A stretch of 35,977 nucleotides of DNA, taken from positions 1-35,977 of the forward strand of contig JAOUMY010000020.1 in NCBI GenBank assembly GCA_029881255.1, written 5' to 3'. The notes beneath the pieces are model-generated. The model saw only the letters and a list, made by a program, of their open reading frames with translations. It did not search any database and was not told the origin of the DNA. Positions 1 to 35,425 of the stretch are shown in pieces. Origin of the DNA: Gammaproteobacteria bacterium (lineage in GTDB: Bacteria > Pseudomonadota > Gammaproteobacteria > S012-40). Within the stretch, counting starts at the first letter, position 1, and each line of letters opens with the position of its first letter. The position numbers and the translations under genes are program-made.

Positions 1-138
1 GTTGTAGGTAGTCATTATATTATTGTCGCTTATTCTATAAATGGGTGTGACAGTAGCTACTACAACATGTTTTGTATTAAGTGTTGCTTTAGTGGCAACT
101 TTTTGTCGTCTATAAGTAGACAATGAGGTTACTTTCAT
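1..138 (-). CDS. Leftward CI-like repressor, N-terminal fragment (partial, runs off left end)
   Basis: This is the 5' end of the same repressor gene that is seen complete at 35411-35761, here on the minus strand and cut by the window start. The likely start is the ATG at 15-13 (MTTYN), since the helix-turn-helix protein follows directly and the region upstream of it looks regulatory. An alternative in-frame ATG lies at 138-136 and has a good Shine-Dalgarno (GGAG, 8 nt away). If that longer form is used, the single mismatch between the repeat arms changes residue 13 from Asn (right copy) to Lys (left copy). Only five codons of the shorter form are in the window, so the identity of the rest is inferred from the repeat. 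It lies head to head with the Cro-like gene, as in lambda-type immunity regions. Confidence 0.5.
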   Translation of the reverse strand, partial: MKVTSLSTYRRQKVATKATLNTKHVVVATVTPIYRISDNNIMTTYN

Positions 139-139
139 C
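16..139. promoter_or_regulatory. Divergent repressor/Cro operator-promoter region
   Basis: This stretch lies between the leftward repressor start (15) and the rightward GTG start (140). It contains a 17-bp palindrome at 83-99, GTTGC-N7-GCAAC, of lambda-operator length, and a perfect 10-bp palindrome AGTAGCTACT at 52-61. A TATAAG (111-116) could be a rightward -10 element. On the minus strand TATAGAAT lies about 12-20 nt before the MTTYN start, which would give a nearly leaderless repressor mRNA, as known for lambda cI from PRM. Promoter calls are by eye and weak at the -35 positions. Confidence 0.55.
83..99. promoter_or_regulatory. Candidate repressor operator, 17-bp palindrome
   Basis: GTTGC-TTTAGTG-GCAAC has 5-bp perfect arms with a 7-bp centre. 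The same architecture recurs at 35327-35343 (the inverted copy), 35802-35818 and 35836-35852. The mismatch between the inverted-repeat arms falls one base outside this site. Confidence 0.55.
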
Positions 140-358
140 GTGGATTCTCCATTACAGGTTTTGCTCAAGAACATAAATAGCGAAACGCGGCGGCGGTTGC
201 AAGCGTTAGGCCTAAGTCGGTCCTCCATTTATCGTTGGACAACTGGCGAACAAGAGCCCTCGCCAGACAATGCACGGTTATTGATTGCCTTCTTTGCTGA
301 CGAAGGTTTGGACTTCAATGGCTGCTACCGTCGAGGTGATAATGACAAGGTGGCCTGA
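140..358 (+). CDS. Small Cro-like helix-turn-helix protein
   Basis: A 72-aa protein starting with GTG at 140; a TGAGGT Shine-Dalgarno-like stretch lies about 11 nt upstream. Residues about 15-50 read as a helix-turn-helix: LQALGLSRSSIYRW followed by TTGEQEPSPDNARLL, the pattern of Cro/XRE-type recognition helices followed by a dimer helix. It is divergent from the repressor across a palindrome-bearing region and overlaps the primase gene by 17 nt, so it is probably the first gene of the rightward early transcript and could act as the lytic-side regulator. The Cro role is inferred from position; the fold assignment is by eye. The first 22 codons are duplicated in inverted form at 35220-35286. 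Confidence 0.65.
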   Translation: MDSPLQVLLKNINSETRRRLQALGLSRSSIYRWTTGEQEPSPDNARLLIAFFADEGLDFNGCYRRGDNDKVA

Positions 359-3300
359 GCGCAAAGAAGACTATTTGGCACTGGCGCAGACGTTATGCGA
401 CCTGGTTGGCGGTCGCTCGGATGTTGCTGCTAGGCATCATGATTTTACCGATGACGCGGGGAATCGACATGTCGGCTGGGGACCATGGAAAGGCAGCAAG
501 GTTGCGCCTGACTATGCCGCTAAGCCCGGTGAATTGGTTAAGCCGTTTAAAATCCCGAAGGGCGGCGGGATTGAAACCAGACTATTGAAACCGTTGTCGG
601 CTGAAAATGTTGTCCGGCATCTTAGAGGTAAGGATCGTCTCGGTGTCTATGTCCTCGATCCCGATTGCCGGGTGAAGTTCCTTGCTGCCGACTTTGACGA
701 TCATTCGGGTAAATTGAATCCGGATGAAGTGTGGCAGGAAGTTAAAAAGTTTTGGGATACGTGCGATACGTGGGATTTTAAGGCGCATATTGAGCGCAGC
801 AAATCCGGGAGTGGATATCATGTTTGGGTGTTCTTTGACAGTCGTGTATCGGCGGGCGATGTACGATCGGTGGGGCGTTGGCTGTTCGAAGAATCGCAAA
901 CGCTACGTGATGATGATGATTTCAGTACCTTCGACCGGTTCTTCCCTGCGCAAGCGACTCTGCCAAAAAGCGCGAAGGGTTACGGCAACCTTATTGGACT
1001 CCCATTGTTTGGCTATGGCGAAGTTTCGCAGGGAAAGACTGCGTGGGTTGATCCGGAATCTGGAGCGACATTGGGTGATCAATGGGGATTTACACTATCC
1101 ATCCTTGAGAACGGGCGTAATACGGCAGCGCAGGTTAGTGAGTTTATGGTCGAACATGAACTGGAACCGGACACAGGTAACGCGCCTGAACGTGAGTACG
1201 AAGCCCGAACGGGTGAGGAACCGTTGGAGCCAGCGGAAGGTTTTGAGGAAATAAAAGCCCGGTGTAATTTCGTAACCTGGGTTGTTGATGAAAACAATTG
1301 GCCAAAAGATTGGCCTGACGTGTCTGAACCATTGTGGTTTGCGTGGTTAACCAACATTGCGCGATTCGATTCTGCCCGTGAGTGGGCGCATAAGTACAAC
1401 AGTTGGCATCCGAAGTATTCCGAACACGAAACAAACCGCAAATTTGACCACGCGCAAACCTCCGGCGCACCTCAGTCGTGTCGACTGATACAAGAGGAAG
1501 GTTTCAAGCGATGCCCAAAAGGTGGGTGTAAGTTACCGAATGGCAATCCCACAAAGTCGCCTGCGGGGCTGGCCGTGTGGGCTAGAAAGGGGAAGAAAAA
1601 GAAGCATAGCCGATCCGTGAAAGTCGAACCGGTGCGCTCTAATGTTGTTGAGTTTCCAAACGGCGCACCAAATAACCGGGCGGACGAACCGCCACCTTTT
1701 GGGGCGAGCGAGCCAGTTAATAACCCCTGGTCGGATAATGTACCGATCAATCCTGATACCGGATTGCCGTGGCCTTACATCAATGGGGTCTCAATCTCTA
1801 ACGACGGTGTGGAATATCTCGGCCAGGGGACTATCTGTTATCAACCGCTTTGGATTGACGCACTGACCGAAGACAATGCCGGGGACTCCGGTATGTTAGT
1901 TAAGTTCTTTGATACTCGCTGGCGGCTTCATTCGCTGGCGTTGCCTGCGAAAGCCTTGCACGCGCGTGCGGGTGATCTCGGCGAGTTCTTCGCCAATAAA
2001 CAATGCTTCTTCGTGCCCGGTAAAGAAAAATGGATGCAACGTGCATTGGCCGCTAATGCGGTGCAATGTACTCGTTACCTGCAATCGACATCTCGCTTGG
2101 GTTGGTTCTCAAACCGGGAAAGTCAGGGAATATTTGTGCTCCCGCGCACGGTGCTGGGCAACACAGAAGAAGAAATCGTTTATCAATCCGATATTCCCCT
2201 GAGCTATGCCGAAACTTTGCATGGTCGTGGCAAGCTGAAAGAGTGGCAATCGCATGTTGCCGCGCCTTGCCAGGGCAATCCGGTGCTAATGTTTGCGCTA
2301 CTCTGCGGTTTAGCGGGGCCGCTAATGAAACTGTGTGAAGTCGAAGGCGGTGGATTCCACTTGTACGGCTTGACCACGGGCGGGAAAACCACGGCGGCTC
2401 AAGTGGCGATATCGCCTTGGGGCTGTGCTGCTGATCCGGGTGAAGACTCGAGCTTGACTGCGGTGCGGACGTGGGACGTTACCGGCAATGCGTTGGAGGG
2501 CTTGGCCGAACTACATAACCATATGATTTTAGTGCTCGATGAAATTGGTAAGTATCCCGATAAGGACTTGGGCCGTCTGATTTACAAACTGTCTCATGGC
2601 AAGGGGAAGGAACGGGCGACGATATCGGGCGGCCTGCGCTCGCCGCGCGCCTGGAAAGTGTTTATTTTCTCAACCGGCGAACTCTCCACGGTACAGAAAG
2701 CCGCGGAATATGGCGAGACGCTAAAGGGTGGCCAACTGTCCAGGCTGCCCGATATCCCTGCTGATTCCTCGAGCGATGGTAGCCGGTCGGTGGTTGTCGA
2801 TCCCCACGGTGAGGACCCAAAAGAATTCGTTGAGAAACTGAAAGCGGGCTGTACTCGGTATTACGGGACGGCAGGCCCTACACTGGTGAGCTATCTCATT
2901 GCATGGTCGGACAAGCTACACTCAGACGATAACGGTGGGCTCGCTACGTTGTCGGGCGATTTGCGGGGCCGCTTAAAGCAACTTGAGGAATGGTTGAATG
3001 CGGACGAGCGATTGCCCGAAGAAGGACGCCGCGTGATCCGGCGTTTCGCCTTGGTTGCACTGGCTGGCTGGTTGGGCTATGAAGCGGGGATTATACCCTG
3101 GCAACTCGAGTACACCTTGGAGGCTGTTAAGGATGTGCGTGACCGTTGGCTGGCTGAACAGGGGAGTAATCGGTCGGAGATTGACCGCGGTCTGGCTCGG
3201 TTGCGCGATCAACTGGTACGCAATATTGGCAGGTTCAAAGGGGTTGATGCTGCACCTGCCTCGACGGACAAGGAACTATTGGGCTTTCGTGTGGATGATT

Positions 3301-3569
3301 TCTTTCTCATCACGGACGAGGGCATGCAGGAACTTTGTCGGGGCTATGATTTCAAAGTCATTCTAAAGGTTTTGAGCAAGCAAGGGTTTTTATGGGAGAC
3401 AGATTCCCCATCGCGAAAAGGGCTCAAGCGCAAAGCCCCTAAGATCAAGGCTTACGGCCAGTATAGACCATGGGTTTACTGGCTATCTTTACGGTTCATC
3501 GGTGACGTGGTTGATGGTGAGTCTGAGGAGGATATAGCTTTACGTGAGATTGAAGAAGGGATGGTCTAA
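342..3569 (+). CDS. TOTE-type primase fused to DUF927 helicase (replication protein)
   Basis: A 1075-aa protein from the ATG at 342, chosen because GAGGTG sits just upstream and the protein family begins near here; in-frame ATGs at 285 and 318 would add 19 or 8 residues. The N-terminal third shows archaeo-eukaryotic primase motifs: DxD in LAADFDD (D117, D119), SGYHVW (H160) and a third acid in STFDRFF (D198). A Cys cluster, C380-x10-C-x4-C396, resembles a zinc-binding element. The C-terminal part is DUF927-like, with a P-loop GLTTGGKTT (676-684) and Walker B VLDE (731-734). AEP-DUF927 fusions are phage and mobile-element replication proteins, so it probably primes and unwinds the phage origin. 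It is the main early gene behind the Cro-like protein. Its 3' end overlaps the convergent gene at 3566-3787 by 4 nt. Confidence 0.85.
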   Translation: MTRWPERKEDYLALAQTLCDLVGGRSDVAARHHDFTDDAGNRHVGWGPWKGSKVAPDYAAKPGELVKPFKIPKGGGIETRLLKPLSAENVVRHLRGKDRLGVYVLDPDCRVKFLAADFDDHSGKLNPDEVWQEVKKFWDTCDTWDFKAHIERSKSGSGYHVWVFFDSRVSAGDVRSVGRWLFEESQTLRDDDDFSTFDRFFPAQATLPKSAKGYGNLIGLPLFGYGEVSQGKTAWVDPESGATLGDQWGFTLSILENGRNTAAQVSEFMVEHELEPDTGNAPEREYEARTGEEPLEPAEGFEEIKARCNFVTWVVDENNWPKDWPDVSEPLWFAWLTNIARFDSAREWAHKYNSWHPKYSEHETNRKFDHAQTSGAPQSCRLIQEEGFKRCPKGGCKLPNGNPTKSPAGLAVWARKGKKKKHSRSVKVEPVRSNVVEFPNGAPNNRADEPPPFGASEPVNNPWSDNVPINPDTGLPWPYINGVSISNDGVEYLGQGTICYQPLWIDALTEDNAGDSGMLVKFFDTRWRLHSLALPAKALHARAGDLGEFFANKQCFFVPGKEKWMQRALAANAVQCTRYLQSTSRLGWFSNRESQGIFVLPRTVLGNTEEEIVYQSDIPLSYAETLHGRGKLKEWQSHVAAPCQGNPVLMFALLCGLAGPLMKLCEVEGGGFHLYGLTTGGKTTAAQVAISPWGCAADPGEDSSLTAVRTWDVTGNALEGLAELHNHMILVLDEIGKYPDKDLGRLIYKLSHGKGKERATISGGLRSPRAWKVFIFSTGELSTVQKAAEYGETLKGGQLSRLPDIPADSSSDGSRSVVVDPHGEDPKEFVEKLKAGCTRYYGTAGPTLVSYLIAWSDKLHSDDNGGLATLSGDLRGRLKQLEEWLNADERLPEEGRRVIRRFALVALAGWLGYEAGIIPWQLEYTLEAVKDVRDRWLAEQGSNRSEIDRGLARLRDQLVRNIGRFKGVDAAPASTDKELLGFRVDDFFLITDEGMQELCRGYDFKVILKVLSKQGFLWETDSPSRKGLKRKAPKIKAYGQYRPWVYWLSLRFIGDVVDGESEEDIALREIEEGMV

Positions 3570-3787
3570 TAATTCCCCCACCGATCAAGACGATACAGAG
3601 CGAGCAAGCGCATCGCGGTGCGTGGTGGTTCTGCTAGTCCCTGGTTCCAGTTCTTAACCGTGGTATAGGGGGTTCTCAGCCAGCGAGCCGTGTTCTTGAC
3701 TGACAAACCCAGGCGGCGGCGGCGCTTAGAAAATGCCGTGTTGTGTTCACGTATGCGGGTTTGTATAGTTGCTGCGGGGACTGGCAT
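3566..3787 (-). CDS. Helix-turn-helix DNA-binding protein
   Basis: A 73-aa basic protein. Residues 27-50 (LGLSVKNTARWLRTPYTTVKNW) match an XRE-like helix-turn-helix, followed by PPRTAMRLLALYRL, typical of small regulators that bind operators as dimers. The start ATG at 3787 follows an AGGA Shine-Dalgarno within the shared leader CTAACACAAACAGGA. It converges with, and overlaps by 4 nt, the primase-helicase gene, so it is transcribed antisense to the end of the early operon. Sharing its leader with the DUF932 unit suggests the two are co-regulated, perhaps by this protein itself; that is inference. Confidence 0.7.
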   Translation of the reverse strand: MPVPAATIQTRIREHNTAFSKRRRRLGLSVKNTARWLRTPYTTVKNWNQGLAEPPRTAMRLLALYRLDRWGNY

Positions 3788-3795
3788 TGGTTGGT

Positions 3796-3841
3796 TCCTG
3801 TTTGTGTTAGGACCGCCCTACCTTTGGCGAGGTAGGGCGGT
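3796..3841 (-). promoter_or_regulatory. Shared leader element, copy 1 (upstream of HTH gene)
   Basis: Read on the minus strand: a hairpin with loop CGCCAA, 7 nt of spacer or stem, then CTAACACAAACAGGA just before the ATG at 3787. A 15-bp identical block (3796-3810) recurs at 6666-6680. The hairpin core 3818-3833 matches 6696-6711 at 14 of 16 positions. The two differences (T3823/A3830 against G6701/C6708) pair with each other, so the stem is kept. Confidence 0.65.
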
Positions 3842-3848
3842 TTTTGTT
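3812..3848 (+). terminator. Intrinsic terminator of rightward early unit
   Basis: A perfect 12-bp stem, ACCGCCCTACCT (3812-3823) with AGGTAGGGCGGT (3830-3841), has a 6-nt loop TTGGCG and is followed on the plus strand by TTTTGTTT. It would stop rightward transcription from the primase operon before it runs into the leftward cluster. The minus strand has no T run after the stem, so termination of the leftward cluster here is less sure. Confidence 0.7.
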
Positions 3849-4051
3849 TACTCGGGGTAAATGATACCAACATTCTCGTCTAAGGTTACGATATATGGGA
3901 AAGGTTCTTCCATGTGCTCCAGTTTCAATGTGGGCAATCCGTCCTCATTTTCTCCAGCTTCCAATATTTCTACATCTTCGACGGTGATTTCTGACCCTTC
4001 CAAGTCCTTTGTCAGATACTCTACAAACTGCGTCATCTGTTTTAGATTCAT
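3848..4051 (-). CDS. Small acidic protein, unknown function
   Basis: A 67-aa, strongly acidic protein (runs such as EDVEILEAGENEDG) with no recognised motif. Its ATG overlaps the stop of the methyltransferase gene (ATGA), so it is translationally coupled as the last gene of the leftward cluster. The hairpin at 3812-3841 follows its stop codon. Acidic small phage proteins include DNA mimics and other inhibitors, but nothing here supports more than noting the charge. Confidence 0.6.
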   Translation of the reverse strand: MNLKQMTQFVEYLTKDLEGSEITVEDVEILEAGENEDGLPTLKLEHMEEPFPYIVTLDENVGIIYPE

Positions 4052-5364
4052 TCCGTGTACTCCCTATCAATCACTACCAGTTTGGTGCGTACTCCGGTTC
4101 CTGACTCCTTGAAAGCATTCTCAGGCAGGTCTATGACTTCGGTTGTCATTCCCTCAATCCATTCCCTGAACTCGGTCGCTTTCTTATCTGATCGGTAGAA
4201 TGGACCCGATGACATCACAGACACTAGGCGGCCTCCAGGTTTCAAGTGGCTGTATGCTTTGCGTATGTGGTCGATCTCTTGGCCGTTTTCAAACGGTGGA
4301 TTCATTAGTACACGGTCGTATTTCTCTTTTCCGCTATACTCCATGAAATCGCCTTGTTCTGTGTTGTATCCTTTCAACTCAAGAATATCAAAAAGACTCC
4401 AATTTTTTTCTATGCACTTCACCCCTTCACAATGTGGTTCAATCGCGTCCGCTATCGCGCCATGTCCTGCGCTGGGTTCGAGTACAACATGACCTTGTTT
4501 CAGTTCGGCATATTCCATCATGGTGTCGATCACGTTTTTCGGCGTTGGAAAGTAGCCGGGAATTTTCGAAAACTTTAGGGCGTCCAGTCTTTCGCGTAGT
4601 TTGTCCGCTTGTTTTTGGCCTTCTCTTTTGGTTCCGATCAATTCCCATAAGGCGAGGGCTTCGGGGCTAGTGTTATCTGGTTCGCCAGTGCAAGCATGAT
4701 AAGAATGAAACCCATTGCTTACGCCTGTTTTCCTTGTTCTCAATAAGCTATAGACAGCATTTATTGAGCGAATATCTTTTAAAACCTCGGGGACTTCTCC
4801 GGCGTCGTGTAGTTCGGCCAGTTTTAAAAGTGCCGTTTGGGTGCGTTGCAATTGCTCCCCCTCAATCCTCGCGCCTTGCGCTTGTTTCAATCGGCGCGGC
4901 GTGTTTGTTAGTCGGTCGGCTAGTTTGTGGTCGATCTTGCTCTGCATGTTGTCCGCTAGGCTGCGCAATTTTTCGGCGTGGGGGTTTGCGGGGCGGCTTA
5001 CCTTCTCGGGGAGTTGCTCAACGATAGGCGCGGGGATTTCATGCGGCTCAATTTTGCTGAGAAATTCCAGGGCGGCGGCCTCCTTCCGAAACGCAAAACC
5101 TCCCGGCGTGCCCTCCCATTGACGAGACCACCAACCGTCTAATTTTTTAGCCTCATGCAATAAATCTAGATATTCTTCCCGCGTCACTCGGTCGCGCATG
5201 ACGACCATATACATGTCAAAACGGCGCTTAGTGTGGCGGTGCTTTTCAATGTGTGCGACCGTCTCAGGTTCAGTGATCATCGGCGCGGGTTGTTTAATTT
5301 CCTGCGCGGGCTCTTGCTCTGTACCGAAGAAAAAATCAAGAAGTGATTGAGATTCGTTTCCCAT
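4048..5364 (-). CDS. DNA adenine-type methyltransferase with N-terminal accessory region
   Basis: A 438-aa protein. The C-terminal half has class I SAM-dependent methyltransferase motifs: YFPTPKNVIDTM (271-282) as usually seen just before motif I, motif I VLEPSAGHG (294-302) and the catalytic NPPF (355-358), typical of N6-adenine or related amino-methyltransferases. The N-terminal part contains HTKRRFDMYMVVMRDRVTREE (about 44-64) and GWWSRQWEGTPGGFAFR, a module found in plasmid and phage methylase or antirestriction-type proteins. The likely role is self-methylation of phage DNA against host restriction. A GGGGA Shine-Dalgarno precedes the ATG. It lies downstream of the 67-aa protein and is coupled to the acidic protein by ATGA. 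The target sequence cannot be read from the protein. Confidence 0.8.
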   Translation of the reverse strand: MGNESQSLLDFFFGTEQEPAQEIKQPAPMITEPETVAHIEKHRHTKRRFDMYMVVMRDRVTREEYLDLLHEAKKLDGWWSRQWEGTPGGFAFRKEAAALEFLSKIEPHEIPAPIVEQLPEKVSRPANPHAEKLRSLADNMQSKIDHKLADRLTNTPRRLKQAQGARIEGEQLQRTQTALLKLAELHDAGEVPEVLKDIRSINAVYSLLRTRKTGVSNGFHSYHACTGEPDNTSPEALALWELIGTKREGQKQADKLRERLDALKFSKIPGYFPTPKNVIDTMMEYAELKQGHVVLEPSAGHGAIADAIEPHCEGVKCIEKNWSLFDILELKGYNTEQGDFMEYSGKEKYDRVLMNPPFENGQEIDHIRKAYSHLKPGGRLVSVMSSGPFYRSDKKATEFREWIEGMTTEVIDLPENAFKESGTGVRTKLVVIDREYTE

Positions 5365-5624: not shown

Positions 5625-6656
5625 TTAACCGTTCAAGTTAGGGAAAAGATCGAACACGTTTTCAGTCGGCGCGGGTGGCTTAGCGTCTACTAGCTCGGCG
5701 ACTCGTTGAAAGGCCTTATCCTTCAACGTCGCGCCCTTGCCAAACCATGCAGAGTTAAGGCGGTTGTCGTTGCTGCGTGAATTTGCCTTGTGATCAACAT
5801 AATAAGTTATGCCGTTAAGTAGCCCCCACGCTGTACCGTCCGCACTTTCGAGGCCTGCGCCTGGAGACCTTGCAACGCATGTCATCACTTCGCGCATGAT
5901 GTTTTTGTTTCGCCTGGATTCGTCGTCGATAGTTTTACTTGATGGGGATTTGAGCAAATCAAAAATAACTTCGGCGGCGTCTTTGGGAGTAACGCGGCAA
6001 CGGCTCATTTCGTCGATGATGTCGCCGAACTCGTCCCAACTGTTACGAACAATTCCCAGATCACTTTTAACCTGATCAGCGTTGAATTTTGTCGAGTGCG
6101 GTACTTTTATTGCGTTGTCAGCGTTGCGGAGTGCTGCGCTTAGCGTGTTATTGCATACGACTCTAACACTGGTGAACTGTGCGCGGGTCGCCATGCTGCC
6201 ATCGCAAGCGGTAGCCAACAATAAATAATTATTGATTTCATCGCGGCCTTTTAATGTTTTACCCATACCCGTTTTGGCTAGTGCCCATACTTTTTTGCCA
6301 TGGCCAAGACTTCCGGCGGTTTCAAGTTCGTATCCGTGGGCCTCTGTTAAGTCGCGGTAAAACTCGATAACTTCTTCGGGCTGAACAACTTTATACCGTT
6401 CGGATACCACAGAAAGCGGGGAATTATCATCGGAACGGTGTAATACAACTTGACCCGGCATAGTGTGGATTGTGCCGTATTGATCGGTATATTTTACGTG
6501 GGAGGCGTTGATCGTCCAATCGAGACCGGCTTGTATTTTCCAGGTCTCTATGTCTGCGCCTGCTTGCAATTGTTGCCCGAGTCCATGCCAGGGAGTTGCC
6601 CCAACGTAAGCCATAGGGATGCGACCAAAAACATTTCTATCTAGCATATGTGCCAT
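5625..6656 (-). CDS. DUF932 (phage/plasmid-like, TIGR03299-type) protein
   Basis: A 343-aa protein of usual family length. Family features are visible: the start MAHMLD..GRIPMAYVGATPWHGLG, then VSERYKVVQPEEVIEFY (about residues 84-100), LLLATACDGSMATRAQFTSVRVVCNNTL, and WGLLNGITYYVDH near the C-terminus. The molecular function is unknown; family members occur on plasmids, prophages and phages, often near antirestriction or RadC genes. It is the first gene of the leftward cluster. Its start has an AGGAG Shine-Dalgarno 8 nt upstream inside the shared leader, and a terminator follows it, so it is probably the most highly expressed gene of the cluster. Confidence 0.85.
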   Translation of the reverse strand: MAHMLDRNVFGRIPMAYVGATPWHGLGQQLQAGADIETWKIQAGLDWTINASHVKYTDQYGTIHTMPGQVVLHRSDDNSPLSVVSERYKVVQPEEVIEFYRDLTEAHGYELETAGSLGHGKKVWALAKTGMGKTLKGRDEINNYLLLATACDGSMATRAQFTSVRVVCNNTLSAALRNADNAIKVPHSTKFNADQVKSDLGIVRNSWDEFGDIIDEMSRCRVTPKDAAEVIFDLLKSPSSKTIDDESRRNKNIMREVMTCVARSPGAGLESADGTAWGLLNGITYYVDHKANSRSNDNRLNSAWFGKGATLKDKAFQRVAELVDAKPPAPTENVFDLFPNLNG

Positions 6657-6665
6657 TGTATTGAC

Positions 6666-7900: not shown

Positions 7901-8136
7901 CCTGCCGGGTAGCTAACCATGCACTCGGGCGCTCTGAGCTAACCATGCCGGAGAATCGTTGTCAGCTAACCATGCTACAGGGGTCTAGGGATATCAATGT
8001 CCTGGGGAGGGCTACCCATGCCAGCCTTTCGTGTTTAATCCGGTCTCGGAGTGAGCGGCGACCGTGGGAAATCCAGGGTTGGCCGTGGGCCGATGCCACG
8101 GGGCGCATCTCTTTTGTGGGAGGGTGCGGGTCGTGA
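7897..8136 (+). CDS. Doubtful 79-aa open frame between terminase genes
   Basis: The frame begins with an ATGA overlap at the preceding stop and ends in a TGATGG overlap with the large-terminase start, a geometry that suggests translational coupling. The protein has no recognisable motif and an odd composition, and its first third is encoded by the AGCTAACCATG repeats, so it may instead be an open stretch of a DNA-site region. Confidence 0.3.
   Translation: MTCRVANHALGRSELTMPENRCQLTMLQGSRDINVLGRATHASLSCLIRSRSERRPWEIQGWPWADATGRISFVGGCGS
7911..8020. repeat. Spaced direct repeats AGCTAACCATG (terminase-binding candidates)
   Basis: Three exact copies of the 11-mer AGCTAACCATG lie at 7911-7921, 7937-7947 and 7964-7974 (26 and 27 bp apart, about 2.5 helical turns), with a degenerate copy GGCTACCCATG at 8010-8020. 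Iterated sites at the small/large terminase boundary fit packaging-initiation (pac/cosB-like) sites, though other protein binding is possible. Confidence 0.6.
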
Positions 8137-9968
8137 TGGATAATGTGGCAACTGCAACGGCACAAGAACCTACGTTAGCCGAATCTGCGCTTGCATCCAT
8201 CACGCATACCGCACGTCCTTTCACTGAAAAAGAGCAAATTGCGTGGCAATGGCTACTGCCCGCAAACATGAGCGCATACGATCATCTGGCTTGGCTAATC
8301 CTCCGCTGGCGACTCGATCCAGTTGCTTTCGGCATAGAGGCTCTGCGCATTGTGATCCAGCCTTATCAAGCACAGATCCTTCTAGACCTCGCCGACGCAC
8401 CACTGGCGTTGTATGAGTTTTATGGACTGAATCCGGCTAACGCGAAACGCCAAGTGATTGTCCCGTCAGGACACGGTTTGGGAAAGACGCGGGTATTGGC
8501 GATTGCGATTTGGTGGCATCTCATCACGCACCCGTTTTCAAAAACCATTTGTACGGCGCCAACGTCAGACCAGTTGACCGGGCAGCTTTGGGGTGAAGTC
8601 CGAAAAATGTACCGGCGCTTAAAAAAACGCTGGAGCATGATTGCGGCCGATTGGGAAATTCTCGGTTCTAGTATTACGCACCGGAATCCTGATAACGGCG
8701 ACTGGATGTGCATTGCGCGAACGGCTCGACCTGAGAAGCCTGAAGGTCTTCAGGGAGCGCACGCACTCGACGACGATGATCCGTTCGGTGAACTCGCCGA
8801 TTTTTTTGGTGAAGAATCCGACGATATCCCCTCGGGCGGTATTTTGATAATCGCGGAAGAAGCCAGTGGTATCGACGACGCTATTCGTGAAGTGCTAGAG
8901 GGGGCCTTGTCCGAAGATGGGGCCCGGTTTCTTGCGATGGGAAATCCTACGCGGCCCGATGGTTGGTTTGCGGAAGCAATGGACAACCCACAACGGTATG
9001 GCGTGGTGAATCTCGATTGCCGGATGTCGAATCGCGAAAATGTGTATGAGCTACCGTTTCGCCACATTCCACAACCGGGCAAACAAGCAGAGATACGACG
9101 CTATCGAATTCGAGGATTTGTTCAGCCGAAGTATTGGGAGAACTTATTGCGCGAATGCGATGGTGATGAGGACCATGATCGGATACGTGTGCGCGTGCGT
9201 GGAATGAAACCGCGAAGTGCATTTGAGCAATGTATCAAAACACACTGGATCGAAGATGCATTTAAACGAGAACCGGATCAAGCGAGCAAGTCGGAGTCTG
9301 TGGTACTTGGCCTCGATTTCGGGCTTACATCCGATAAGCATTCTATTGGCGCGAGACAAGGTTTTAATTGTCTCGATGGTGAAGAATGGTTGCCAAAAGA
9401 AAAGCCGGAAGAAATTACACTCGACGCGGCGCAACGCGCAATTGATTGGCAAGAATTGTATAGAGCGAAGTTCATTATTGGCGACGCTAACGGAGTTGGC
9501 CGGGGCGCGATGGAGTACCTTGCAAAATATTTTCATCAAGACCGTCCAGAACTTGGTGTGCGCGTTATCTTGTTTAACTCAGGCACGGGGGCCGCCGACA
9601 ATAAACGGTTTTATCGTCGGCGCGATGAAATGTGGTTTAAAGAAGGGCGCAAATTCTTTGCGAATCCGCGTTGCTATGCGCGCGAACTGCCAGGGCTAAA
9701 GGCGCAACTTACACAGCCTGGGTTTCATGAGGATGCCAGTCGGCGCATCAAGGTTGAAACAAAGAAGGAAATCAAGTCACGTCTGGGTGAAGAAAAGGGC
9801 GCTTCGGGGAATCTTGCGGAAGGCTTTCTACATACGTTAATGGTGCATGTGCCTGAGCACAAAGAAGCAAAAAAGAAACAGAAACCGGAGGAATTCTTTC
9901 ATCCGGCAATAAAGAAGCATTTTTCACGTTTGAGGGCGCGAATGTATGACGCCAACTTTATTCGATGA
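8136..9968 (+). CDS. Terminase large subunit
   Basis: A 610-aa packaging motor from the ATG at 8136, preceded by GGGAGGGTG; an upstream in-frame ATG at 8064 lies in the preceding open frame and is less likely. The ATPase domain has a Walker A-like SGHGLGKT (111-118), and Walker B ILIIAEE (236-242) ends in the catalytic acid. The C-terminal nuclease domain has an RNase H-type first acid in LGLDFGLTSD (D394) and a second in IIGDANG (D450). It translocates DNA into the prohead and cuts it. It follows the small-subunit candidate and the AGCTAACCATG array; the membrane-protein gene at 9965 overlaps its stop (ATGA). Confidence 0.93.
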   Translation: MDNVATATAQEPTLAESALASITHTARPFTEKEQIAWQWLLPANMSAYDHLAWLILRWRLDPVAFGIEALRIVIQPYQAQILLDLADAPLALYEFYGLNPANAKRQVIVPSGHGLGKTRVLAIAIWWHLITHPFSKTICTAPTSDQLTGQLWGEVRKMYRRLKKRWSMIAADWEILGSSITHRNPDNGDWMCIARTARPEKPEGLQGAHALDDDDPFGELADFFGEESDDIPSGGILIIAEEASGIDDAIREVLEGALSEDGARFLAMGNPTRPDGWFAEAMDNPQRYGVVNLDCRMSNRENVYELPFRHIPQPGKQAEIRRYRIRGFVQPKYWENLLRECDGDEDHDRIRVRVRGMKPRSAFEQCIKTHWIEDAFKREPDQASKSESVVLGLDFGLTSDKHSIGARQGFNCLDGEEWLPKEKPEEITLDAAQRAIDWQELYRAKFIIGDANGVGRGAMEYLAKYFHQDRPELGVRVILFNSGTGAADNKRFYRRRDEMWFKEGRKFFANPRCYARELPGLKAQLTQPGFHEDASRRIKVETKKEIKSRLGEEKGASGNLAEGFLHTLMVHVPEHKEAKKKQKPEEFFHPAIKKHFSRLRARMYDANFIR

Positions 9969-17028: not shown

Positions 17029-18033
17029 ATGTCAGTTAATAAAGATGGGGTGCAACTATTCGATGGAATAGCTGACACCGACGATATGTTCATCACCACG
17101 ATGGAGGAGATGGACAAAGAAGTAGGGGATGAAATCACCATCCCGCAACCGGTTTTCCGGTACTTGAAAGACGCTAATTTGATCCAGTACCGGAAGTCTA
17201 TCGGGACGCATGTGCCGGTCAAGTTGCTCGACAAAGAAAATTCCACCGTGAAGGACTTTGCGCACTATGACGACGTAGACAACACGCCGCAAGACGCGCT
17301 CAGTGAAGCGAAGTTTTCCTACGGGCAAACGGTCGGGACGCAAATGTATTCGCGCCAGGAACTTGTGCAAAACTCTGGCGAGGAGCAAATGATTGATCTC
17401 GTTGAAACCAAGACGGATCAATTGCTCAAGACCATGGCGAATAAGTTTGGCTCAAACTTGATGGGCAGCCAGGATGCAGATGGTCGCACGCCGATGGGCT
17501 TGGGCCGCGTGATGGCATATAACCAATCATGCGGCGGTATTTTGCCCACAACGGCAGGCTTTGAGTATTGGAATCCGCAACGTGGTTTGAAGTCGGACGG
17601 TGCAACGCAATACGCATTGGCCACAGAAATGCGAGACGGTATTCGCCGATTGACACGTCTCTGTACGTATCAAGGTGAAACACCGGACGTTTTAATCGCG
17701 GGTGAAGATCTTTACGATGAAATGCAGAAGTTTGCGGAAAGTAAACTCCAGCTTAGCATCAAGGATCTCAAAGACGAGAAGGGCTGGGGTGCATTTAATA
17801 TGTTCCCGTACAATTCGCAAGTTGTCATCTACGATGAATCAATGGACCCGAAAACGGGTTGGTTGATGAATTTCCGTGACTCGGTGAAAGTGCGCATCCA
17901 CTCGGGCACAAACTTTCAGTTCGAGAAGTGGCAGATGATGACTAACAAGGTCGCGAAAAAGCGCGATTGTTTGTTGTACGCTGCTGTGTTTGTGAAGAAG
18001 CGCAATTCTAACGGGTTCATCACTTTTACTTAA
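17029..18033 (+). CDS. Major capsid protein
   Basis: A 334-aa protein directly after the scaffold gene and directly before a very strong terminator, as expected for the most abundant virion protein. Residues 95-150 (SYGQTVGTQMYSRQELVQNSGEEQMIDLVETKTDQLLKTMANKFGS) resemble the spine-helix region of HK97-fold capsid proteins, and the C-terminal part has the mixed sheet pattern of the axial domain with DPKTGWLMN.. and TNKVAKKRDCLLYAAVFVKKR. The ribosome site is AGGG. No protease gene is apparent nearby and no N-terminal delta domain is obvious. Confidence 0.85.
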   Translation: MSVNKDGVQLFDGIADTDDMFITTMEEMDKEVGDEITIPQPVFRYLKDANLIQYRKSIGTHVPVKLLDKENSTVKDFAHYDDVDNTPQDALSEAKFSYGQTVGTQMYSRQELVQNSGEEQMIDLVETKTDQLLKTMANKFGSNLMGSQDADGRTPMGLGRVMAYNQSCGGILPTTAGFEYWNPQRGLKSDGATQYALATEMRDGIRRLTRLCTYQGETPDVLIAGEDLYDEMQKFAESKLQLSIKDLKDEKGWGAFNMFPYNSQVVIYDESMDPKTGWLMNFRDSVKVRIHSGTNFQFEKWQMMTNKVAKKRDCLLYAAVFVKKRNSNGFITFT

Positions 18034-28835: not shown

Positions 28836-31800
28836 TGCCGTTTGTTCCTCTGTCGAATCGACAAGACGATGAGGAGGTTGTGCCTCAACGTGGCTTTACA
28901 CCGATCAGTTCGCGGCCCCCCTCTGTCTCCCCTCCTACGGTAGAAAGCGAGCAAGACTTGTTTGCGACGGAACCGCCCTATCCTGGTTTTATGCAGGGCA
29001 TAAAAACCCAAAATCGTGAGTATGTGGCATTAGATAGGCCGGGATTCTTTGATCGCACAAGCGCGGCGTTTGAAAGTCATGATGGGCTGAGTGCGAACCT
29101 GCTCAAATATGCGAGCGACTTTTTACCGCAGGTTGATCCCGTCACAGGCAAAGTCATGAGGCCCGACGAAAATCGTAAAGACCGGGTGTTGCGTGAGCTG
29201 GTTGCGAAACGGCAACTGGCGATGCCAGAGGCAGAAACATTCGGGGAAAAGGCGGCGGATTTCCTCGGTGCCGCAGGTAGTGAAATCGTGGACCCCACTG
29301 CTATAGCGGCAGGCGGTGTCGGTGCGACCCTCCGTGGACTTGCGCGACTGGCTACATTGTCGGGTGTTGGCGGTGCATATGAAGGCGCCAGTGCTATCGC
29401 CGAACAAATGGCCGATCATGGCGAAGTTGTTGATGCCGGTAATGTGGGTATACGCGCGGGGACAGGGGCGGTGGCTGCTCCTGTGCTGGATCTATTAATT
29501 CGGGTAGTCGGTACAGGTTTTAAGAAACTGTGGGCCTTACGCAGCAAGCAAGGCGCTGACACGGGCGCTATAGATGAGCAAATTGGCCAAGGCCTAAGTG
29601 CGGTTTTCGAAGAAGCAGACAAAACCGGCGTGGCGCGTACAGAAGCCGCTCAAATGCTGGCACGGGTGATAAAGACCCCCGAAGGTGACGTGGTTGCGCC
29701 TTCGTCCGATGTTATACGTGCTTTGCCGGGTGAATCTCCAATAGCGCCAACTGAGGCACCGTTGCGTACGAAAGAAGGCGAAGTGTTGCCCGTAGAAAAT
29801 GCACATCAACAGGAGCAAGGCAAACCCGCAGCGGACTATCAAAATCTCGCTAACGAGTATGAGCGACTGGCCAGAGCGACCAGTGACGAATCGGTGCGTA
29901 CCGATTTGCTCGCCCAAGCTGACCGGCTTCGCCGACAACGGGTTGCTGAGATTGAAGACGCAAAACCAAAACTAAGCGCAAAGGAAAGAGCCAGACAACG
30001 CGCACAACAGATGCGCAAAGTAGATGAGTCTCAAGACGATTTAATCACGGCGATCCGTAAGCTCGGTGGTATTAATGTCGCTGAGGATTCGGATTGGGCG
30101 GGGAGGCTAAAGCATCTCTCGAGGCGTGTTCCAGGGTTGCCTGGGATAGAACAAACTTCCGGTGCCGGCCGTTCGCTGGATGATTTGGCTGAATTGCTCT
30201 ATGGCCGTGGCTATCTCAAGAGCCGGGACAAAAAAGAACTGGAGGACTTGCTTTGGCGAGCCGAAAATGGTGAAAACTTTTATTCCTCTGCGCGTCAAAT
30301 GTCAGACGATGAGATTGCGCAAATGGACCCGAACTATGGTCGCCCGCCAGAGGATTCCAACTTCGGTAGTGACAGCGACTACACCTTCCACGACAATGAT
30401 GTTGCGATAGATGACACCGATGCGGAGTTTGTGATTCGCACGGATGCTGGCACTATTGTTCCGGCCCGACCTTTGGACGAGGACGACTTATTACGGATTG
30501 ATGCGGAGATACGCGCACATGAAGAACGAGAAGCAGAGCTTGACGCCTACTACGAACGAGAACGAGCACTCGAAGAAGGTCAAGGGGAGCGGGAAACCGG
30601 CGAGCCTGGACAAACTGAGGGATTTCGCTTATCGGAACGGAGTGAGGATCGAGTTCCGCAACGGGCTAGTATTGAACCCGGAACGGGAGCGGAAACAGAT
30701 TTCCTCCCAGGCATCGACAAACCCCGACCTGGAGAACAACAACTAGCCGATTTTATTCGCCAGAAAGAGGCGGCTAAGGCCCCTCAAGGCTATGTGGCAC
30801 CACACCAAGGTGAAGGGGATTTATTTAACCCACAAGCGGGTGCGCAGAAGGATCTCTTGCGTGATGGATTTAAAATCGAGTCGCCAGACGGATTTAAACC
30901 TTACTCGCCTTCATCGAACAGGCCGCTACTTTTTCTCCCCGCCGATGCTGACCTGCCTACGCGCAAGGCCGCATTGGATACATTTGGCCGCAAAGTAAAG
31001 CATGTGGAGACTGGCACCTTCCCGACCGGCATATCGCGGATTCGTAATAGCGCCGATCTCGCACATGTGATTGCGCCGATCCGCAAAGACGCACAGGAAT
31101 CCTTTGTAACGGTTGTAACGGATGATGCGGGCAATGTATTGCGCATCGCCAAACTACATAAGGGCAGCCAACGAGAGGCAAGCGTAGATCCAACATTGGT
31201 TGCTGGCGTGGCGGCGAATACGAAAGGTGCAAAGGCTGCGTGGATTGCACACAATCATCCCACGGGCGGCGTTTCACAAAGTGAAGCCGATAAAGTATTA
31301 ACCTCGAAGATCCATGATCTTCTCCGGGGCAGTGGTGTTGAGCTGAAAGGATCGGTTGCCATTGCTCCAGGCGGCAAGGTGCATAGCCTGTTTGGCGAGG
31401 GGGTTGAACTTAATAGCGTACCTACAAACGCACAAGCCCGTTCGGGCGTTATACCTGTCACTGAACGACGGTTGGTTGGGCAAGAAACGCCTCATGAACC
31501 GATAGAATCCGTAGACCAAGCCCACGCGGTTATGAACGAACTGGGTAATAATCAAGATGGTGTTTTATTGGTAGACGCACAGAGTCGCCCAGTCGGCTTT
31601 TTACCAATGACAGTGGATGAAATGCGCACCTTGCGCAGTGGCGAACAGGGCGGTTCTCAGCGGCTCTTACAGGCATTGGATGAGACACAGGCCGATGGTT
31701 TTTTTGTGCGGTCGGACTCTGAGGCGGTCGCTGGAAACATGAATGCGTTCGCGTCTGCAACAAAAAAACGCCTTGTTGATGTGGTTGACAGTTCGGGCAA

Positions 31801-34800
31801 GTCACACCAAACCAAAGAAGGCATCCCAGAACAATCCACGTTCTATTCAAATCCGTTTGGTGTGGCGGCTAAGGAAATTGCGCGGGATTTCGTGCGAGAA
31901 CCGGGTCGCAATCTCGCGGCGGCTATTGCTGGTGGAACGTATGCAGGCACAACGTCCGAACATGAGATGGGCAGCCCTGAGTGGTGGCTGGATGTAGGCA
32001 AAGGTGGAGGCCTGGGGCTGTTGATCTCTCAGGGCGGTCGTGCGGCAAAACTGTGGGGACCGGGGAGCATTGCGGATAAAGGGCGGGTAAAACTCGGCAA
32101 TGCGATTGAGCGACTACCGTTGATCGGTCGCGGTCCTGCTGAGGTGCGTGAGCTCAAGCGCAAGCAGCGATTGATGCGCCAGTTATTGGATCGGCAAACC
32201 GAGGAAGTGGGTAAGTTTTTGCTCAAGAACTTCAGCCCGAGCGAGCGTGCTCAAATGGCCGATCTCATTGAGAATCGCGGAATCATTCAGGACTTCAACC
32301 TAGTGCATCGTCAGGCCGCAATTCTCGACGATTATTTGGTGCAAGCGGGTGAGCGCATGAAAGAACTGGGTATGCTCCCAGAGGAATTAGAGACGGGCGG
32401 CTATCTGCATCGTTACTACGCAAAGCATCTTGGCTTGGATAAGGACTTTCGTTTGGCCAAAGGGCAAACACTGTCTGGATCGTATTCGATTGCACGCGGG
32501 AAAGATGAACTCATTGATCGCAATTACATGAGTCCTCGCGCTCAGTCGGTCATGAACCAGGTAGACGAGGTGCGCAGTGAAATCCAGACATTAGAAAAGT
32601 CACGGTCGGATTTATTGGGCGCCGATAATAATGCGCGGCTCAACGATCTGCGCGCCCAACTACGGGATCTGAAAAAGAAAGAGTTAGTGGAATATACTGG
32701 TGGCGAAAACGGGAAACTACGGTCGTTCTTTTTCCTGAAAGATGAAGTTGCAAGGTTGGCCCGTGAGGACGGGTCTATCGTCGGGTTTGAAGGTGGACCT
32801 GGACCCGGACTTGACCCGACTTTAGGGCCTGTTGCCAAGCTGGACGGTACATTCAGTCCTACGGAACGTGTATGGTCGATCCGTGGCACGCGTAAGGGGC
32901 AAGCGTTGTTGCATCGGGATTGGACGGATGCTGAGCGTCATGCCTGGGGCGAGATTAAAGACGCAGGTTATCGTTACGTTCGCGGCATGGGCGAAGTGTC
33001 GCATGACCTCAGTTTGGCTACGCTGTATAAGACGGTTGCTGATCGCAGTGCGTGGGCGAGTAAAGACCCGATACCGAACTGGAAGCAGGTGCCCGTCACG
33101 GCTGTTGGTGGTTCGCCAATGAAACGCTATGGCGCGTTGGCGGGGATGTATGTGCGCCCTGACGTGTGGAATGGCATAAGCCGTTACGGTCGCAATCTCA
33201 AAGTGTTGGGACCCGTTGGCGATACCAAGATTCCCGGCACTGGCGTTACGATAGACCAGTTTTATCGTGCGTCTGTCAACAAGTGGAAGTTATACAAAAC
33301 TGTCTATAACCCGGTCACGCATTTAAACAATGCCTTCTCAAATGTGGAAATGCTTTACATGGCGGGGTATTCCCCTTTCGATCTCGCCAAGGCGTTTAAT
33401 TTGGCGCGGCAAAATGAAAAATCGGATGTCTGGGTAGAGGCCAGAGAAAACGGGTTGTTCGGTGCGGATTGGTCCAGTTCGATCACGTCTGCGGACGGAG
33501 GTAACGCAAAAGCAATTGCAGATCTTGCCGACGAATTGTTAAAGCAACCGGAAATTCCGGACGCCATTCTTTCGACGGATATTATGATGCGGGCCAAAGA
33601 GTGGTATATCAATTCCCGCAATGCTGTGAGCGAAGCCGATGGTAAGTTTGCTAGCGGGGCGGCAATAGCGAAAGCGATGAGAGAGCCCGCTTTGAAGGGA
33701 TTGAAAGTCAGCCTGAAACCTGTGACTGCGGCAGGCAATGCAGCACAAAAACTGTACCGCTTCGAAGATGAAATATTTAAATTGGCGGTGTATCAAGCTG
33801 AGCGTGCGAAGGGCAAAAGCCCGGAACAATCGGTTACGACTGCGCAGCAATTCTTCTTTGACTATAACGATCTCCCTACCGTGGTGAAAGCAATGCGGGA
33901 CTTCCCGGTTGGATCGCCTTTTATCAGCTATACCTACCTTGCAATACCGGCAATTGCCCGCAATGTCGTACACCACCCAGAGCGTGTGTTGGCTCTGGTT
34001 GCTGCCTATGAGGGCATGAATTACGCGGCGCTGTCTGCCGATGGGGAAGCTGGCCCTGGGGAATATTGGGCGGCTGAGGAGGCGCAAAATACAGCCAGTC
34101 CACCTTGGGATAAAGGCCGCGCAGCCTGGGGCGCACGCAATACCGTAAATCTACCTAATGTGCCATATCTACCCTCCCTGGACGGTTATCGCTTGAGCAT
34201 GGCGCGTATGCACGCCATGGGTAATCCGTTTATGGCAGAGTCGGGTAATCGAGCGGCGTCTGTACCGTATGCGTCATGGTGGGGATCTGATTTGTTGGGA
34301 TCAAACCCGTCTCATGCGTTATACGATATCCTGATTAATGAGGATTGGCGGGGCAAGCCTATCTACAAGGAGGGTGCAACGGCAGAAGATAAGCGGGCCG
34401 CTTTGGCTAACTATCTGTACCAAGCATGGTCTCCGTCCAATCCACTAACTCCTGGCGGCTACCACCAGCAAAAAATCATCGAAGGGCTGGCAACGGACAA
34501 AGCTCGAGCCGAATCAGCGGGCGAAGATCCAGGGCTGGCAGGCTTTGTTGTGGAGACCGCTAACGGTGTTGCTGAGGCGTTGGGCATGCAGGGCTTCACT
34601 GGCATTGACGGCCTGGGTTACGAGATTGAAAGCCGGGATGCGATACTCGGTTCGCTCGGCGTTAAGTTGCGCCCTCAGCGTTTTGCTGAGTCGATTTCGT
34701 TCGAGAAACAGGACATCGAAAAGGCAATGAAGGACAAAGATCGGTGGCTAGATAGCAAAGCGTTATTGGCGAATAAAGGGCGACTTTCTGAGTCTCAGTT

Positions 34801-34900
34801 GGAAAAATATCGCGCTCAATATGAGCGCGATATCCAACGTCTGAATGATAGATTAAATAAGATCAACGAGGCTGAGGACTACTTAACCCCTTCCCCGTGA
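28835..34900 (+). CDS. Giant ejection/polyvalent-type protein with RadC-like JAB domain
   Basis: A 2021-aa protein. Residues about 145-200 hold Ala/Gly-rich hydrophobic helices, the middle (about 330-620) is charged and low-complexity, and residues about 690-840 form a RadC-like JAB/MPN domain: HNHPTGGVSQSEAD with H806, H808 and D819 as the metal site, preceded by AKAAWIA and followed by LRGSGVELKGSVAI. Later parts are helical; about 1670-1730 (FFDYNDLPTVVKAMRDF, then FISYTYLAIPAIARNVVHHPERVLALVA) look membrane-active. JAB domains are known in phage and conjugative polyvalent proteins injected with DNA. It is the last large gene of the ejection set. No peptidoglycan hydrolase motif was seen; that activity is in the separate gene at 12711. 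Confidence 0.8.
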   Translation: MPFVPLSNRQDDEEVVPQRGFTPISSRPPSVSPPTVESEQDLFATEPPYPGFMQGIKTQNREYVALDRPGFFDRTSAAFESHDGLSANLLKYASDFLPQVDPVTGKVMRPDENRKDRVLRELVAKRQLAMPEAETFGEKAADFLGAAGSEIVDPTAIAAGGVGATLRGLARLATLSGVGGAYEGASAIAEQMADHGEVVDAGNVGIRAGTGAVAAPVLDLLIRVVGTGFKKLWALRSKQGADTGAIDEQIGQGLSAVFEEADKTGVARTEAAQMLARVIKTPEGDVVAPSSDVIRALPGESPIAPTEAPLRTKEGEVLPVENAHQQEQGKPAADYQNLANEYERLARATSDESVRTDLLAQADRLRRQRVAEIEDAKPKLSAKERARQRAQQMRKVDESQDDLITAIRKLGGINVAEDSDWAGRLKHLSRRVPGLPGIEQTSGAGRSLDDLAELLYGRGYLKSRDKKELEDLLWRAENGENFYSSARQMSDDEIAQMDPNYGRPPEDSNFGSDSDYTFHDNDVAIDDTDAEFVIRTDAGTIVPARPLDEDDLLRIDAEIRAHEEREAELDAYYERERALEEGQGERETGEPGQTEGFRLSERSEDRVPQRASIEPGTGAETDFLPGIDKPRPGEQQLADFIRQKEAAKAPQGYVAPHQGEGDLFNPQAGAQKDLLRDGFKIESPDGFKPYSPSSNRPLLFLPADADLPTRKAALDTFGRKVKHVETGTFPTGISRIRNSADLAHVIAPIRKDAQESFVTVVTDDAGNVLRIAKLHKGSQREASVDPTLVAGVAANTKGAKAAWIAHNHPTGGVSQSEADKVLTSKIHDLLRGSGVELKGSVAIAPGGKVHSLFGEGVELNSVPTNAQARSGVIPVTERRLVGQETPHEPIESVDQAHAVMNELGNNQDGVLLVDAQSRPVGFLPMTVDEMRTLRSGEQGGSQRLLQALDETQADGFFVRSDSEAVAGNMNAFASATKKRLVDVVDSSGKSHQTKEGIPEQSTFYSNPFGVAAKEIARDFVREPGRNLAAAIAGGTYAGTTSEHEMGSPEWWLDVGKGGGLGLLISQGGRAAKLWGPGSIADKGRVKLGNAIERLPLIGRGPAEVRELKRKQRLMRQLLDRQTEEVGKFLLKNFSPSERAQMADLIENRGIIQDFNLVHRQAAILDDYLVQAGERMKELGMLPEELETGGYLHRYYAKHLGLDKDFRLAKGQTLSGSYSIARGKDELIDRNYMSPRAQSVMNQVDEVRSEIQTLEKSRSDLLGADNNARLNDLRAQLRDLKKKELVEYTGGENGKLRSFFFLKDEVARLAREDGSIVGFEGGPGPGLDPTLGPVAKLDGTFSPTERVWSIRGTRKGQALLHRDWTDAERHAWGEIKDAGYRYVRGMGEVSHDLSLATLYKTVADRSAWASKDPIPNWKQVPVTAVGGSPMKRYGALAGMYVRPDVWNGISRYGRNLKVLGPVGDTKIPGTGVTIDQFYRASVNKWKLYKTVYNPVTHLNNAFSNVEMLYMAGYSPFDLAKAFNLARQNEKSDVWVEARENGLFGADWSSSITSADGGNAKAIADLADELLKQPEIPDAILSTDIMMRAKEWYINSRNAVSEADGKFASGAAIAKAMREPALKGLKVSLKPVTAAGNAAQKLYRFEDEIFKLAVYQAERAKGKSPEQSVTTAQQFFFDYNDLPTVVKAMRDFPVGSPFISYTYLAIPAIARNVVHHPERVLALVAAYEGMNYAALSADGEAGPGEYWAAEEAQNTASPPWDKGRAAWGARNTVNLPNVPYLPSLDGYRLSMARMHAMGNPFMAESGNRAASVPYASWWGSDLLGSNPSHALYDILINEDWRGKPIYKEGATAEDKRAALANYLYQAWSPSNPLTPGGYHQQKIIEGLATDKARAESAGEDPGLAGFVVETANGVAEALGMQGFTGIDGLGYEIESRDAILGSLGVKLRPQRFAESISFEKQDIEKAMKDKDRWLDSKALLANKGRLSESQLEKYRAQYERDIQRLNDRLNKINEAEDYLTPSP

Positions 34901-35061
34901 ACAATGCACCCCTCCACTACATATAAAACTTCATGTAGCAGTTTCCCCACTGCTTGACATATATTTTGGTTTATAGCTTGATCCCTGCCTTTTAGGTAAT
35001 CGGCGACCATATTGAGCATGGAACAGGCTTCATGCGCAGTATATTGGTTATTTTCGTGCAT
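34879..35061 (-). CDS. Small leftward gene of unknown function
   Basis: A 60-aa protein (MHENNQYTAHEACSMLNMVADYLKGRDQAINQ, then CQAVGKLLHEVLYVVEGCI). A perfect GGAGG ribosome site 7 nt upstream of the ATG supports it. Its tail overlaps the tail of the giant gene by 22 nt on the other strand. Helical, no known motif; perhaps a small regulator. Confidence 0.65.
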   Translation of the reverse strand: MHENNQYTAHEACSMLNMVADYLKGRDQAINQNICQAVGKLLHEVLYVVEGCIVHGEGVK

Positions 35062-35143
35062 TTATTTCCCTCCATTAGAGTTGGACTAATATTTATATCA
35101 ATATAATTAGGGTATTTATATACTACTAAAGGAGTAGGTTTAT
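35062..35143. promoter_or_regulatory. AT-rich divergent promoter region
   Basis: This 82-bp stretch separates the leftward 60-aa gene and the rightward lipoprotein-type start. It has a perfect TATAAT (35102-35107) with TTGGAC 15 bp upstream, and a second TATACT at 35119-35124, in the rightward direction; several AT-rich -10-like stretches also lie on the minus strand. Exact start sites are not determinable. Confidence 0.45.
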
Positions 35144-35219
35144 ATGATTTATGTTGCAAGGTTATTGTATTCATTATGTTTATTAACGGTCGTTAGTTGC
35201 GCGACATCCACAAAATTAG
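35144..35219 (+). pseudogene. Lipoprotein gene start, interrupted by inverted-repeat junction
   Basis: The ATG at 35144 has a strong AAGGAG ribosome site 9 nt upstream. The product begins MIYVARLLYSLCLLTVVSC|ATSTKLDA: a signal peptide with the lipobox VVSC, like Rz1-type outer-membrane spanins or other small lipoproteins. About 25 codons in, the sequence enters the inverted copy of the left operator region, where the frame stays open and fuses with the repressor (205 codons in all). The natural remainder of this gene is not here. Whether the fusion exists in nature depends on whether the junction is real. Confidence 0.55.
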
Positions 35220-35286
35220 ACGCTTGCAACCGCCGCCGCGTTTCGCTATTTATGTTCTTGAGCAAAACCTGTAATGGAGAATCCAC
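35149..35286 (-). pseudogene. Truncated inverted copy of Cro-like gene
   Basis: The minus-strand GTG at 35286 begins the same 22 codons as the gene at 140 (MDSPLQVLLKNINSETRRR LQA), then the frame leaves the repeat and ends after 23 unrelated codons. The recognition part of the helix-turn-helix is missing, so it is not expected to function. Confidence 0.6.
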
Positions 35287-35425
35287 GATGAAAGTAACCT
35301 CATTGTCTACTTATAGACGACAAAATGTTGCCACTAAAGCAACACTTAATACAAAACATGTTGTAGTAGCTACTGTCACACCCATTTATAGAATAAGCGA
35401 CAATAATATAATGACTACCTACAAC
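35220..35425. repeat. Right arm of 206-bp inverted repeat
   Basis: Reverse complement of 1-206 with a single mismatch (35326 against 100). It carries the repressor promoter/operator region, the operator palindrome at 35327-35343 and the repressor start. The boundary at 35219/35220 is sharp, with no extended microhomology beyond the repeat itself. Confidence 0.97.

Follow-up and report, generated by a model that had tools for sequence, protein, structure and literature searches.

The 35,977-bp window analysed here, which is the entire contig C20 (JAOUMY010000020.1) of the gammaproteobacterial assembly GCA_029881255.1 and has contig ends at both base 1 and base 35977, is a tailed phage, judging from its terminase, capsid, adaptor, tail and primase-helicase genes. 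Near both of its ends lies a copy of a putative immunity switch, in which a repressor gene and a Cro-like gene would diverge around an operator region, and the two copies are inverted relative to each other. We propose, with about even confidence, that the point at which late-side sequence meets the inverted switch at the right end (35219/35220) is a chimeric join, or one confined to a minority of molecules, and does not belong to the main genome of the phage. An error of joining is somewhat more likely than a real rearrangement, and the choice between them is narrow. The original prediction, made from the letters alone, had posed this same choice between two inverted copies of the switch and a chimera; it was the right choice to pose, and both readings retain weight.

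The inverted repeat itself is directly visible in the bases and is as it had been described. Positions 1-206 (left arm, plus strand) and 35220-35425 (right arm, minus strand) are reverse complements, with 205 of 206 bases complementary, and they form the sole inverted pair in the window when exact seeds of 14 and a minimum length of 25 bp are applied. The single mismatch lies at position 100, which is T in the left arm and, read on the same strand, A in the right arm (window position 35326). The longest exact match from arm to arm is 106 bp, and the two arms have no 127-mer in common. On the inner side, identity between the arms stops at 206/207. On the outer side, the left arm is limited by the contig's own end, with no other boundary there, and the right arm ends 552 bp short of the contig end. 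The repeat seems to start at base 1 because the contig ends there, whatever the cause; since no sequence is available beyond the left arm, the repeat may extend further than is visible, a caution that the original prediction had already voiced. Its claim that the repressor start, an operator-like palindrome and the start of the Cro-like gene are present in both arms also stands.

Each copy of the switch retains one of the two regulators intact and has the other one cut. In the left copy, the Cro-like helix-turn-helix (HTH) protein is intact (140..358, plus strand; 72 residues from a GTG start, PF01381, E 8.1e-06), with 22 whole codons from the GTG at 140 lying within the arm, and a primase-helicase with AEP and DUF927 domains is encoded downstream of it (285..3569, plus strand); the repressor of this copy is cut by the contig end. 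In the right copy, the HTH repressor is intact (35411..35761, plus strand; 116 residues from the ATG at 35411, PF01381, E 1.9e-06), with five codons lying within the arm, and it is the Cro-like gene that is cut by the join. What is left there is a truncated second Cro-like copy (35149..35286, minus strand), which consists of the first 22 codons followed by an unrelated frame, for 45 residues in total. PF01381 is found in both the repressor and the Cro-like protein of this putative divergent switch.

Between the Cro-like GTG at 140 and the repressor ATG at 35411 sits a palindrome that is operator-like by its sequence. It reads TGTTGC-N7-GCAACT in the left arm (82..100, plus strand), where the outermost base, 100, is the one at which the arms differ, and it is a perfect 19-bp TGTTGC-N7-GCAACA in the right arm (35326..35344, plus strand). 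Two more operator-like sites, each with one mismatch, are present at 35801..35819 and 35835..35853 (both plus strand), between the repressor and an open reading frame (ORF) that starts at 35877 in the repressor's direction and runs off the contig end (35877..35977, plus strand; 33 residues, no Pfam match). Sites of this type with at most one mismatch number 4 in the window, against 0.18 expected from shuffles, and those with at most two mismatches number 11, against 2.13 expected; this is a generous test, since the pattern was derived from the same sequence and two of the 4 sites are the arms themselves (3 sites if the arms are counted once). The common operator type would tie both contig ends to one phage or regulatory system. 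Matches to sigma-70-like promoters were not above chance (2 against 2.8 expected, and 1 against 0.5 expected). The T at position 100 also gives the left-arm palindrome a terminator-like run of five T (window 83-110), and a terminator-like site was searched for around the right arm and not found.

The repressor may start further upstream than assumed above. An alternative in-frame ATG at 35288, preceded by GGAG (by eye), would give a protein of 157 residues, and the repressor frame is open throughout 35220-35410, which happened in 1.3% of 20,000 trials under a first-order Markov model, given the frame. The true start may therefore be at 35288, in which case the palindrome of the right arm may fall inside the gene.

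The original prediction was right to single out 35219/35220 as an odd point, because two reading frames are cut there. On the late side, a likely lipoprotein gene (35144..35219, plus strand), with a Shine-Dalgarno sequence AAAGGAG and a lipobox-like LTVVSC ending its signal peptide (both recognised by eye), breaks off after its first 25 codons; on the switch side, the Cro-like gene breaks off after 22. The lipoprotein-like frame remains open through the arm and into the repressor, which gives a 205-residue ORF (35144-35761). With two frames broken at one point, the join seems to have arisen later than the genes themselves, as either an artefact or a recent rearrangement. The distance from the join to the contig end is 758 bp.

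The way in which the contigs were assembled bears on how such a join could arise. The assembly comprises 44 contigs and 4.97 Mb, of which the two ends of every contig (for C1 to C15, the outer 20 kb at either side) and C16 to C44 in full were examined, giving 1,054,569 unmasked bases. Six of the 88 contig ends, those of C42-C44, read N, and the other 82 were compared with one another. Of these 82, 30 agree exactly with another end over 127 bp, as an overlap or a shared prefix; the rows at exactly 127 comprise 18 forks and 18 dovetails, with pairs listed twice, and overlaps of 99, 92 and 45 were found for three more pairs. The 127-bp overlaps are a sign of de Bruijn assembly at k=127, as SPAdes-type assemblers leave such k-length overlaps at contig ends. 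Neither end of C20 has sequence in common with the other contig ends, and both belong to the 47 of 82 ends without an exact partner of at least 20 bp; as the smallest contig is 2462 bp long, short neighbours were probably dropped. Because the arms have no common 127-mer, they are separate paths at k=127, and the join at the right arm requires its own k-mers. The join is probably present in the reads, and plain confusion of the assembler between the two arms is unlikely. Another contig, C31, begins and ends with the two copies of a perfect 4389-bp direct repeat (1-4389 and 6065-10453; LysM-like by eye), which reflects a tandem duplication or else a loop in the assembler's path. This repeat prompted the idea that the assembler used one edge twice in C20 as well, which is disfavoured, since the arms differ by one base, unless there was later polishing.

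According to the chimera reading, the phage would have one ordinary switch, with a leftward repressor, a shared operator region and a rightward Cro-like gene before the primase. The left contig end would cut this single switch five codons into the repressor. In one or more molecules, perhaps a minority, sequence leaving the late region would have become attached to the other strand of the switch slightly further on, in inverted orientation at 35219/35220, and the same repressor would thereby appear at the right end. Such a join would leave out an unseen stretch as well as what remains of the lipoprotein gene. We favour a chimera because the gene order is ordinary without the join, two frames are cut and the join lies near a contig end. 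With the join set aside, the repressor, operators, Cro-like gene and primase would stand in the standard divergent order. That the join lies outside the main phage genome, and what the unseen stretch contains, we infer from this arrangement. In multiple displacement amplification (MDA), an inverted join with a skipped nearby stretch is the commonest chimera, accounting for 406 of 475 (Lasken and Stockwell 2007, PMC1855051). The join here would be of that form, with arms that differ by one base. In addition, among IMG/VR contigs with a completeness estimate, 33.2% of those with terminal inverted repeats are more than 90% complete, versus 90.0% of those with direct repeats (PMC8116208).

The consequences depend on which of the two holds. 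If the join is an error, it would be wrong to take the contig for a phage with two switches, and descriptions of the immunity region should treat the final 758 bases as the other side of the left-hand switch. If the join is real, the layout would be unusual, with the repressor and its lytic opponent under separate inverted copies of one operator region, and these two copies would possibly be exchangeable by recombination.

Several points weigh against a chimera. The arms differ at one base and have no common 127-mer, and a copy of the same switch made in forming a chimera should match it exactly, barring a single-nucleotide polymorphism in the population or an error at the contig end. Inverted pairs within one contig (at least 60 bp, at least 90%) are also scarce elsewhere in the 1.05 Mb examined: one is a 75-bp self-palindrome, and the second is a pair of 110 bp between both ends of C4 that is common to C22. 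By this measure, inverted joins are uncommon in the assembly. Moreover, a well-covered true path should normally win over a rare chimera.

Local graph models point the same way. Seven local graphs at k=127 were built, with random filler for the unseen stretches and every k-mer taken as covered, and the predicted first unitig ends on the left and right were compared with the observed contig ends, 1 and 35977. With the same base at 100 in both, one switch plus a chimera gives ends at 80 and 35219; one switch with T and a chimera with A gives -27 and 35219; and the T/A chimera with the true continuation of the lipoprotein gene left uncovered gives -27 and 35453. The chimera models thus place the left end at 80 or -27 and never at 1, and therefore a loss of coverage must also be assumed; such a loss could also place the left end at 1. 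Two of the three chimera versions put a branch at 35219, which the contig crosses. Assemblers can extend across branches, so that a contig crossing one is no contradiction. As predictions from idealised graphs, these models would lend weak support to a real structure.

A real inverted duplication that is fixed in the phage is possible, if rather doubtful. The left copy would drive the Cro-like gene and the primase, the right copy would drive the repressor from the genome's other side, both operators would answer to the same repressor, and the truncated Cro copy would be left over. The single mismatch and the lack of a common 127-mer would fit this arrangement, in which both arms form separate assembly paths, as would the fact that the left arm keeps an operator with an intact Cro-like gene and the right arm an operator with an intact repressor; the scarcity of inverted pairs elsewhere counts for it as well. 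However, a fixed duplication requires a truncated lipoprotein gene in addition to the truncated Cro copy. When a duplication of exactly 206 bp is modelled, no predicted end falls near either arm, and with no branch nearby the ending of the contig at base 1 would have to be explained otherwise. We know of no published phage with a two-copy inverted control region. Among the titles and beginnings of abstracts listed in searches of the literature, there was also no report of a phage with an inverted duplicated switch.

One may argue instead that the join reflects a mixed population, in which recombination between the arms flips the segment with the repressor so that it lies either beside Cro or beside the late region. 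We consider this unlikely, and equally so that the contig comes from a temperate phage with two inverted control-region copies whose population holds two forms of the immunity region. The arms are long enough for homologous recombination, and, among the seven models, only the one with both orientations and a crossover on the inner side of position 100 has a branch exactly at base 1 (ends at 1 and 35425). Yet the same model puts its other branch at 35425, which the contig crosses, a crossover on the other side of 100 predicts 101 and 35325, and the agreement at base 1 is weakened by the fact that, with the contig ending there, the repeat must appear to start there anyway. Since the operator and the repressor start are in both arms, flipping would hardly change the control of the repressor.

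Inversion as a working switch, as the original prediction had suggested, is so far unsupported. Inverted repeats do flank a segment, as in an inversion switch, and in phage inversion systems of the Gin/Cin/Pin type two inverted copies likewise flank a segment, which is inverted via short recombination sites. In contrast, the arms here are a 206-bp control region and no invertase was recognised. Scans of 35 ORFs on the contig revealed no recognisable site-specific recombinase, which is weak evidence, as many of these ORFs are without any match. PF00239 has 0 matches in the assembly (the control was positive in 10 of 14 genomes), and the 8 matches to PF00589 in the assembly are all on contigs other than C20. 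For C20, these scans cover the contig, without the stretch missing between its ends.

Protein-primed linear phages of the PRD1 and phi29 type have terminal inverted repeats, and a longer repeat of this kind, with the switch, the repressor and more at both ends of a linear genome, would agree with a left arm that runs to the contig end. This is highly improbable, and the little probability that remains belongs to it or to something not thought of. PRD1 and phi29 likewise have inverted repeats near both ends, but here the right arm is not terminal: it stops 552 bp before the contig end, and the ORF at 35877 runs off beyond it. The model with a long inverted repeat places its branches at -27 and 35453, not at 1. 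In addition, none of the 35 ORFs scanned was recognised as encoding a protein-primed DNA polymerase, the phage having the AEP/DUF927 primase-helicase instead. A telomere-phage reading of the N15 type was dropped, as no protelomerase was recognised and the arms do not abut.

Setting the join aside, the switch would resemble known ones. In lambda, and in the immB regions of N15, PY54 and phiKO2, HTH repressor and Cro-like genes likewise diverge around an operator region. In PY54 a single operator was found to separate the two genes, with specificity determined by its peripheral base pairs (PMC4488713); here, the sole difference between the arms is the outermost operator-like base. Unlike in the lambdoid and telomere phages, two inverted copies are present here, one of them with a cut Cro, and no sequence relation to these phages was demonstrated.

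No relative was found that is close enough to show the intact region or to decide on the join. DNA 1-4000 had no match in phage records; the terminase, the capsid protein, a large 2021-residue protein and the repressor had no confirmed match in viral contigs, and neither did the primase in genome contigs, where both contig scans reach close relatives only and records of this genome were possibly left out. With tblastn, phage matches were all below 60% identity: 22 records for the primase, 6 for the capsid protein and 168 for the terminase, together with 5 weak matches (also <60% identity) for the 2021-residue protein among 50,697 phage records; the protein encoded at 13812-15692 and the repressor had none. 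The six capsid matches among named phages, which include Mx8, Mx9, ppBjS10J-1, BUCT555 and a faecal phage, show 24-31% identity across 37-70% of the protein. Among plasmids, the primase matched 169 records, all below 60% identity, and the repressor matched none.

In whole genomes, where the counts include the window itself, the terminase was found in 1 of 56 relatives and 5 of 369 class members, the capsid protein in 10 of 398 genomes of the phylum, the protein of 13812-15692 in 1 of 369, and the repressor in 4 of 274, the three others being weak. Four other genomes carry the terminase; stretches from three of them (G210, G166 and G113, with G275 left out) were compared with 34 proteins of the window, and what they have in common with it is the terminase, parts of the 2021-residue protein and one short piece. 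As these three share so little, they are too distant to test the join. For the host, the nearest named rpoB matches among the 80 listed of at least 596 are MAG Gammaproteobacteria N2M-Bin_1 and Ca. Thiodiazotropha, at 77% and 76% in the best segment, which puts it in or near Gammaproteobacteria.

The remainder of the contig is consistent with a phage genome. From 156 mechanical ORFs of at least 60 residues, 35 likely genes were picked and compared with PHROGs, Pfam or both, many of them without a match. The terminase large subunit (8064..9968, plus strand; phrog_2, E 6.1e-23) and the major capsid protein (17029..18033, plus strand; phrog_9953, E 1.3e-24) are accompanied by further tailed-phage genes, including an SU10-type adaptor and a tail protein with an S74 peptidase domain. 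The G+C content of C20 is 0.498, versus 0.471 for stretches of the eight largest contigs, and its tetranucleotide correlation with these contigs is 0.80, compared with 0.70-0.92 for C21 to C41 and 0.93-0.98 for the eight largest contigs themselves, which are part of the reference.

Other genes of the contig merit mention. A short ORF of 60 residues on the minus strand (34879-35061), with a good ribosome-binding site by eye and no PHROG match, overlaps the end of the oppositely oriented gene for the 2021-residue protein (28835-34900), and that protein has an embedded RadC-like JAB domain at residues 737-852. Tandem repeats of 66 and 69 bp, which are whole numbers of codons, lie inside two late-region genes, at 27196-27525 and 19921-20127. 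Finally, positions 11759-12301 strongly match Tad5, which inhibits type I Thoeris defence (PF25190, E 8.5e-33), and a DHH phosphoesterase-like gene (10929-11762) adjoins it.

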